From Acidithiobacillus ferridurans (GTDB lineage Bacteria > Pseudomonadota > Gammaproteobacteria > Acidithiobacillales > Acidithiobacillaceae), in assembly GCF_003966655.1 (NCBI RefSeq), contig NZ_AP018795.1, positions 434,001-498,000 on the forward strand: 64,000 bases of DNA. Direction: 5' to 3'. Position numbers and translations under genes: made by a program. Below are positions 53,545 to 55,396 of this stretch, piece after piece; position 1 is the first letter of the stretch, and the number at the start of each line of letters is the position of its first letter. The notes beneath the pieces were generated by a model, which was given only the letters and a program-made list of their open reading frames with translations, was not told the origin of the DNA and did not search any database.

Positions 53545-53766
53545 ATGCAAGTTCGCGAAGAGAAAGAGCAGAGCGTAGAAGTCATTTTGACCGCCCGTGA
53601 GGCGGTACAAATCGCCAGCGATATCCTAGCGAACCCAAAAACGGCCGGGCCAGGAGCCGTTGCCTTGGCTGAACTGCTGCAGAAGGAGGGATTCACGGCT
53701 GCCCAGACTCAGGCGCCCGACCGTTATGAGTGGAAGACGCCGGATGATATGGAGCAGGACGTCTAG
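53545..53766 (+). CDS. small hypothetical acidic protein
   Basis: 73 residues: VEVILTAREAVQIASDILANPK, then AVALAELLQKEGF and a hydrophilic end. No signal or membrane span, no recognised domain. Starts 11 bp after the preceding gene with a ribosome-binding-like AAAGGAAG upstream, so both are likely expressed together. Confidence 0.55.
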   Translation: MQVREEKEQSVEVILTAREAVQIASDILANPKTAGPGAVALAELLQKEGFTAAQTQAPDRYEWKTPDDMEQDV

Positions 53767-53867: not shown

Positions 53868-54929
53868 TCAGGAAGCGCTGGACACCGGCAGACGGCGCGC
53901 CCCGTCAAAACGTGCGGCCCAATAAGGGTCATTCAAACTCGCTACGCGAACCCCTGTACTCGGGGTCTGGGCGCTGACAAAGTGCTCGTCACCGATATAT
54001 ATCCCGACATGGGAAAAAGGCCGGTGCAGAGTGTCAAAAAACACCAGATCGCCCGGCTTTAGATCATCCCGGGAAACCCTCCGCAACTGGGCGGCCTGGG
54101 CATAAGACGTACGCGGTACATGAATATCAAACTTCGCCAGGATGTATTTGACAAAACCGCTGCAGTCGAACCCTGAGACTGGGCTCATCCCGCCCCAGCG
54201 ATAGGGAGCACCGATGAATTTGAGCGCAGAAACCACCATCCGGCGAGGGGACAGCCAGGAACCTGTGTCAGGATGGCCATCCGAATCCGCATATCTCCCT
54301 TCCTGCGCAATAACATCCGCCAGTTGGGCGGCCGCCTGCGGCCCGACAGCGACATTTCCACTGCTTTCTAGAGCCTGCAAAGGGTGGCGGGTCCAGTGAT
54401 AAGCCTGACTCGCCAGCATCTCCAACGCCAGCCGCAGATGCGATTGCTGCGGCAGCGGGGCCCCAGGCATCGGATCAACTGGAGCAGCCACCGGCCGTTT
54501 CGGAAGAACCACTGGCACGTCATCCGTCGCCATCCCGGTCTTGACCAGGCCCAGCGACTGGTCGACAAAAACGGGGCTGGTTACGTTATCGCTATCCACT
54601 ACCGGGAAGGACTGCATGGGGAAGCCGTAGGTCGGAACGGTCTGCGGAGCCGCACCAACCCCAGCAAATTCAACGGGGGCAAGATGCAGCAACCGTAACG
54701 CCGTCGGCGTCAGCGAGGTGTAGTCACCTTTTGCGGCACGTGTCGCCTTGTGGTGGGAGCGCAGGTAAGCATGGTGAACGACCCTATGCAAGGGTGTGTG
54801 GGTATGGTGGTGACTGACCCTATGCAAAGGCTTGTGAGCCACCCCGTGCGGGGCCGCCTGACACACACTGATCCCGCCTAAAAACGTCATTACCGCCATG
54901 GCAACCCGCCAGCGATGTTTTTTTTGCAT
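53868..54929 (-). CDS. secreted NlpC/P60-type cell-wall hydrolase
   Basis: 353 residues. A signal peptide (VAMAVMTFLGGISVCQAA) is followed by a His-rich segment of HKPLHRVSHHHTHTP type, a linker, and a C-terminal NlpC/P60 papain-like domain. The catalytic Cys is in SGFDCSGFVKYIL, the His in FSHVGIYIG, and the third polar residue in DEHFVSAQT. Such enzymes cut peptidoglycan peptides. The unusual His-rich N-terminal stretch could bind metal ions (inference). Confidence 0.88.
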   Translation of the reverse strand: MQKKHRWRVAMAVMTFLGGISVCQAAPHGVAHKPLHRVSHHHTHTPLHRVVHHAYLRSHHKATRAAKGDYTSLTPTALRLLHLAPVEFAGVGAAPQTVPTYGFPMQSFPVVDSDNVTSPVFVDQSLGLVKTGMATDDVPVVLPKRPVAAPVDPMPGAPLPQQSHLRLALEMLASQAYHWTRHPLQALESSGNVAVGPQAAAQLADVIAQEGRYADSDGHPDTGSWLSPRRMVVSALKFIGAPYRWGGMSPVSGFDCSGFVKYILAKFDIHVPRTSYAQAAQLRRVSRDDLKPGDLVFFDTLHRPFSHVGIYIGDEHFVSAQTPSTGVRVASLNDPYWAARFDGARRLPVSSAS

Positions 54930-55050
54930 TCGTTCGTCTCCCGAATTACCTGGGAATCGCCGCTGCGTAATCTGCCCGTTGGCCGATTATGCAGAGACAT
55001 TGCCATTTCTCAAAACAAGACAGAGAAACTTCGAGGCTCTCCCTACCTAC

Positions 55051-55077
55051 AATAAAAAAGCCGAACAAGTTCGGCTC
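55051..55077 (-). terminator. rho-independent terminator on the minus strand
   Basis: Minus-strand GCCGAA-CTTG-TTCGGC forms a tight stem with a CUUG-type tetraloop, followed by TTTTTT. In the plus direction there is no T-tract, so it serves a minus-strand transcript starting above 55,080. No coding gene on that strand precedes it, which supports a small RNA. Confidence 0.85.
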
Positions 55078-55163
55078 GATATACATACTGCACTCCAGAT
55101 GCGGACACATGGCGACAACCCAGAGCGCCGGCCGGACTACCGGTTACGCGGTCACTCTCTCCC
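55051..55163 (-). ncRNA. candidate small RNA, about 113 nt
   Basis: In the 510-bp gap between the NlpC/P60 gene and the porin, no protein gene is supported. On the minus strand TTGATT (55198-55193) and TAGACT (55175-55170) with a 17-bp spacer form a promoter. About 110 nt later comes a strong terminator. The sequence between (beginning GGGAGAGAGTGACCGCG) has no useful open frame. A transcript here would end 122 bp before the NlpC/P60 start. Identity is unknown; position beside an iron-uptake operon is noted. Confidence 0.5.
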
Positions 55164-55396
55164 AAACCAAGTCTAATATTAGTCATTAGTAAAATCAATG
55201 GTCCATAGCTGTTCTTTGGGACTATAGGTCGTATTCATCCCCAAGGCAAGACCCCATCGCTAGTCATGAAGCGCTATGGCGCACCTCCGGGGCAAGCCCG
55301 GACAAGTGCCATCGATACCATGACGGCAACAGGATTCTGAGGCCACGCCTGCTCTGGTCAGGGATGATTGACATGCAGCCTTCTCTATATTTACCA

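Follow-up and report, generated by a model that had tools for sequence, protein, structure and literature searches.

On the minus strand of the 64,000-nucleotide stretch of Acidithiobacillus ferridurans DNA analyzed here (the window), a short gap between the iron-uptake genes and nlpC carries an intrinsic terminator, raising the question of whether this element is a stand-alone small RNA, possibly linked to iron, as a preliminary description had proposed, or whether it is part of the gene that follows it. That gene, nlpC (53868-54929, minus strand), encodes a 353-aa NlpC/P60 family protein (PF00877, E 4.6e-30), and is the controlled gene in the model proposed below. At the DNA level, the region was detected in 19 of 57 genomes searched, comprising 17/17 from the same genus (A. 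ferridurans itself included) and 2/2 from the genus g2. The comparison set was made up of the nlpC-upstream regions of 28 Acidithiobacillaceae genomes from four genera, reached via the NlpC protein orthologue. An NlpC protein match was present in 29/29 family genomes, and the region upstream of the orthologue was read in 28; the genome left out (G028) is 61% complete, is without an nlpC orthologue, and carries only a short second NlpC protein. In two order-level relatives there were just short NlpC-domain matches, and the orthologue was not found. Throughout the 28 loci, nlpC is the constant partner of the element, located directly downstream on the same strand, and, as already stated in the preliminary description, no gene lies immediately upstream of the element on the minus strand. 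On the other side of nlpC and convergent with it, a 73-aa ORF on the plus strand (53545-53766) was also observed, which tblastn detected in many loci of the same genus (75-97% identity) and in g2 (43%). It has no match in a Pfam search and represents an unnamed conserved small protein.

The promoter conserved at this locus, P1 (TTGCCT-17-TATAGT, 55249-55221), lies ~50 bp upstream of the one previously described. A TTG-type -35 hexamer (TTGCCT, 55244-55249, minus strand) is found 17 nt from the -10 element (TATAGT, 55221-55226, minus strand) in 28/28 family loci, and the T-A-x-A-x-T of the -10 element is invariant in all of them, so that each locus contains the pattern TTGNNN-17-TA[TG]A[GT]T. 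By weighted scoring, P1 also ranked as the best promoter between -150 and nlpC in 28/28 loci. Among 15 representatives, the spacer was variable (mean of 0.71 bits) compared to a nearly invariant -10 element (1.69 bits). The predicted transcription start is at ~55214 and, because the conserved promoter is P1, the predicted RNA is ~161 nt long (55214-55054) rather than the ~113 nt originally estimated. The sequence initially taken for the promoter, TTGATT-17-TAGACT (55170-55198, minus strand, with its hexamers at 55198-55193 and 55175-55170), is present letter for letter, but it falls inside the predicted transcript and is an 8/12 match, below the scan threshold of 9/12 and unlisted by the scan. 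Nor is it conserved, with TAGACT becoming TCGACT, TCGAAT, or TCGGAT even within the genus. Thus, the terminator and the lack of an upstream minus-strand gene hold from the earlier observation, while the promoter and the length of 113 nt had to be replaced. A further candidate, a TAATAT -10 element near the same position together with an upstream activator dyad, was dropped, as the corresponding sequence in g3 and g4 loci is TAATAC, TAATAG, or TAATGA, with a better promoter further upstream.

Directly behind P1, alignment of the 28 loci revealed a conserved 5' block (CCCAA to ATGRCTAAT; 55178-55220, minus strand) that is unique to this locus in Acidithiobacillaceae. A sequence model of the promoter and block (R2) detected them once per genome, at nlpC, in 28/29 family genomes, the miss being G028, with further matches at E 0.04 or worse. 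Scanning 84,980 species with the block pattern produced 18 matches, 17 at Acidithiobacillaceae loci of the comparison set and one that was unrelated. The possibility of a regulon was rejected, as neither the promoter block nor the hairpin described below has a second convincing copy in the family. In two close species (L031 and L032), the block is altered (TTTTGCTAATGGCTGATTT, TTTTGTTAATGGCTGATAT), with the promoter and terminator intact.

A transcript initiated at P1 would encounter the intrinsic terminator GAGCCGAAC-TT-GTTCGGCTTTTTT (55054-55077, minus strand), which has an 8-bp stem followed by T6 and is listed by the scan on the minus strand only. This is the terminator of the preliminary description, present at 55077-55054, and a counterpart with a T-run occurs in 24/28 family loci (23/27 by automated parse, plus L071, which was read separately). 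A promoter, leader, and intrinsic terminator precede a same-strand nlpC in 24 of the 28 loci, and the conservation of promoter and terminator indicates that a short terminated RNA from the minus strand, as first suggested, is likely. The predicted fold of the RNA was no more stable than those of shuffled sequences (z -0.05). A riboswitch with an antiterminator was considered and rejected, given that the terminator pairs dominate the ensemble (mean pairing probability 0.88-1.00) and that no alternative fold replaces the terminator.

In the four other loci, all from g4 (L065, L066, L067, and L069), the terminator is absent while P1 and the block are kept, a pattern for which the NlpC tree requires one or two losses. 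P1 runs directly into nlpC after ~170-190 nt in these loci, where it scores 6.8 and the next-best promoter 2.2-3.5. With the terminator gone and the promoter and block kept, transcription would continue straight into nlpC, and the retention of P1 and the block without a terminator points to a cis-acting nlpC leader with premature termination.

Further downstream, in the nlpC 5' untranslated region, there is a conserved long hairpin (54951-55005, minus strand) of 20 pairs with regular mismatches (z -2.39) and with covariation above that of shuffles. Covariation was evaluated in 24 of the 28 loci, leaving out L026, L030, L035, and L036, which are identical or nearly so to others. Among these, 87.3% of cells pair, and there are 13 double-change cells compared to 3.5 in shuffles, although relatedness inflates such figures. 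The g4 hairpin has a different inner sequence that still pairs, both by eye and in the model alignment, whereas the MAFFT alignment scores the inner pairs as broken. The covariation, together with pairing in g4 by another inner sequence, implies that the hairpin acts as RNA and that the mRNA should start upstream of it. A possible second nlpC promoter, P2 (TTGAGA-16-CATAAT, 54986-55013, minus strand), overlaps this region, with its predicted start at the centre of the hairpin, or inverted repeat. P2 is strong in L001, L025, and L026 and weaker in most of the genus, and no comparable site was found in g2 and g4. It could serve nlpC in the window species, which counts against the model of a leader transcribed from P1.

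These features bear directly on whether P1 drives a trans-acting small RNA that stands alone, with the 5' block acting as its seed region and P2 as a separate promoter for nlpC. RNAs of this class typically combine a promoter, a conserved 5' end, a variable body, and a terminator; the terminator here folds stably, and P2 matches well in the window species. However, a site scoring comparably to P2 is lacking in g2, L061, and the rest of g4, the element has no Rfam match at the gathering score, and the hairpin that precedes nlpC implies that transcription starts upstream of it. Moreover, the promoter and block always immediately precede nlpC, in the same orientation, and they persist in the 4/28 loci without a terminator, where no other nlpC promoter comes near the score of P1. 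This retention is hard to square with a free small RNA as the only function, leaving the stand-alone character of the RNA in doubt, and we regard this explanation as unlikely.

The invariant ATG of the block begins a candidate leader ORF of 47 codons plus a stop (55043-55186, minus strand) that passes through the terminator, which makes the earlier label of non-coding doubtful. In 24/24 terminator-bearing loci, the frame from this ATG reaches the terminator, running into or through the stem (12/24), or stops 2-13 nt ahead of the stem (12/24), and 74-125 nt separate the ATG from the start of the stem. The leader frame was open in 13/13 clusters, compared to 6.8 expected from dinucleotide shuffles (P ~1.3e-4), a value obtained by treating the clusters as independent, which they are not fully, and with an open-frame cut-off of 18-20 nt ahead of the stem that was set after inspection of the data. 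As a counterpoint, the A-rich sequence ahead of the terminators supplies stops by itself. The +1 frame fails in 12/24 loci, and the +2 frame is closed in 24/24, by the block itself. In the terminator-less loci, the ORF is just 8 codons long in 3/4, and 39 codons long in L067. Single-base indels distinguish the leaders of different species, indicating that the openness of the frame is kept, rather than its sequence. Codon -3 relative to the ATG is ATG or GTG in 9/9 loci from g3 and g4 (9/28 overall), most of which have a G-rich motif 5 nt upstream of it. It is ATT in 19/19 loci from Acidithiobacillus and g2 (19/28 overall), so that initiation there would have to use AUU, or the AUG with a distant Shine-Dalgarno-like motif.

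An open frame of this kind might also be expected if the locus encoded a small, fast-evolving protein and had a promoter and terminator of its own. The invariant start region would be consistent with such a gene, as would a frame that is open to the terminator in every terminator-bearing locus and ends just short of it in half of them, and the differences between L064 and L071 fall mostly at third positions. However, codon-position counts revealed no third-position excess outside of this pair, the leader peptide is not conserved, with clades differing past the first few residues, and the ORFs of the other 12/24 loci run into or through the terminator. A conserved protein was rejected on the basis that the third-position signal is restricted to the one pair, and a small, fast-evolving one also appears improbable.

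It is also conceivable that the block and the inverted repeat before nlpC act as DNA, serving as operators for a regulator, with the terminator merely insulating nlpC. No RNA structure was predicted for the block, the repeat is near-palindromic as DNA, its reverse strand also fitting the hairpin model (36-52 bits in Acidithiobacillus and g2), and the start predicted for P2 falls at the repeat centre, all of which would suit an operator. Yet the inner arms in g4 are replaced by other, still pairing sequences, one hairpin pair is most often T-G (11/24), and the element is present in a single copy, with no second convincing site found in the genome. We therefore consider operators quite improbable.

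Based on the sequence features described above and their conservation, as well as the loss of the terminator, the open frame, and the stop-to-stem distances examined in PMC4824070, we favor an attenuator of nlpC that is coupled to translation, on a principle like that of pyrBI, with the RNA forming the 5' leader of the nlpC message, and we place the probability of this reading at roughly 45%. We infer that transcription starts at P1 and usually ends at the premature intrinsic terminator, yielding a short RNA of ~161 nt, while polymerases that read through would pass the conserved hairpin and then enter nlpC. Read-through would probably be set by translation of the short leader ORF beginning in the 5' block, with a ribosome close behind the polymerase covering the terminator stem and, through this coupling, suppressing termination. 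Points that count against this model are the ATT at codon -3 in Acidithiobacillus and g2, the absence of a third-position excess in the ORF outside of the L064/L071 pair, the distance between the ATG and the stem, the lack of a fold that replaces the terminator, and P2.

The pyrBI attenuator of E. coli employs UTP-sensitive pausing in the control of pyrimidine synthesis, whereas the gene in question here encodes a cell-wall hydrolase. What the two would share, going by PMC4824070, is a terminator located in a short leader ORF and read-through when the ribosome follows closely. That study indicates that termination in E. coli all but ceases with the stem within a few bases of the translated stop and is maximal beyond ~30 bp. 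The tR2 terminator placed behind a translated gene, as presented there, is likewise almost fully repressed at short stop-to-stem distances, and the natural distances observed here are all in the short range, although the tR2 case is a synthetic reporter system. A c-di-AMP riboswitch, described in PMC9960051, provides another example of a leader RNA preceding the gene of a cell-wall peptidase; in contrast, the nlpC leader has no Rfam match, the ydaO model included, and no recognised aptamer upstream of its terminator.

The suggested link to iron did not extend across the family. A feoP match was found near the element in 15/18 extended loci and in none of the other three (L028, L041, and L042), and feo genes adjoin the element in only part of the family. 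In most species, a thioredoxin-like gene (PF13098 in three tested) is situated between feoP and the element, divergent from the leader. This gene, found at 4454-5084 in L034 and as counterparts elsewhere, is absent here in the window species and its closest kin. Since the upstream neighbors vary, the iron neighbor appears to be circumstantial. In L027 (G007), where the best matching pieces begin at residue 103 of feoP and cover just residues 710-780 of feoB, the feo operon looks decayed, and the nlpC leader is intact. Counted crudely against a consensus, similarity to a Fur box reached 12/19 in three loci, among them that of the window, where the match lies in the 5' block, and was 11/19 at feoP. 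An iron-responsive small RNA under Fur control, of the PrrF/RyhB type, to which the element bears a likeness in its size and terminator, in a full-length but insignificant PrrF match (RF00444; 17.8 bits compared to a cut-off of 90, E 1.8), and in a Fur-box-like sequence no worse than that at feoP, is very improbable, given that this match is absent from the loci of seven relatives tested, that by the same crude count the Fur-box similarity drops to 9-11/19 in 25/28 loci, leaving Fur control unconvincing, and that 3/18 extended loci are without a feoP match near the element. Accordingly, a promoter, short gap, and terminator beside an iron operon do not amount to evidence of an iron small RNA.

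A literature search, with most subscription journals outside of its reach, returned nothing on this RNA or leader. An RNA termed Frr has reportedly been published for A. ferrooxidans, and neither this search nor a term search within one paper found it. A term search of PMC2621215 and PMC2631029 found mention of feoP, but not of a small RNA.

A broader form of the attenuation model, which we advance tentatively and hold to be doubtful, is that the leader constitutes a family-wide, single-locus attenuator in which selection acts on the initiation region and open frame of the ORF, and not on the peptide. Such a device would gauge translation initiation and set the output of a peptidoglycan hydrolase, perhaps with an AUU start in Acidithiobacillus. 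The 28 natural leaders, in which the ORF is shortened in 3/4 cases of terminator loss, make this idea directly testable. If true, an acidophile family would couple production of a cell-wall hydrolase to translation via a leader in which the peptide itself does not matter, and surveys of small RNAs would misfile this simple design as a small RNA.
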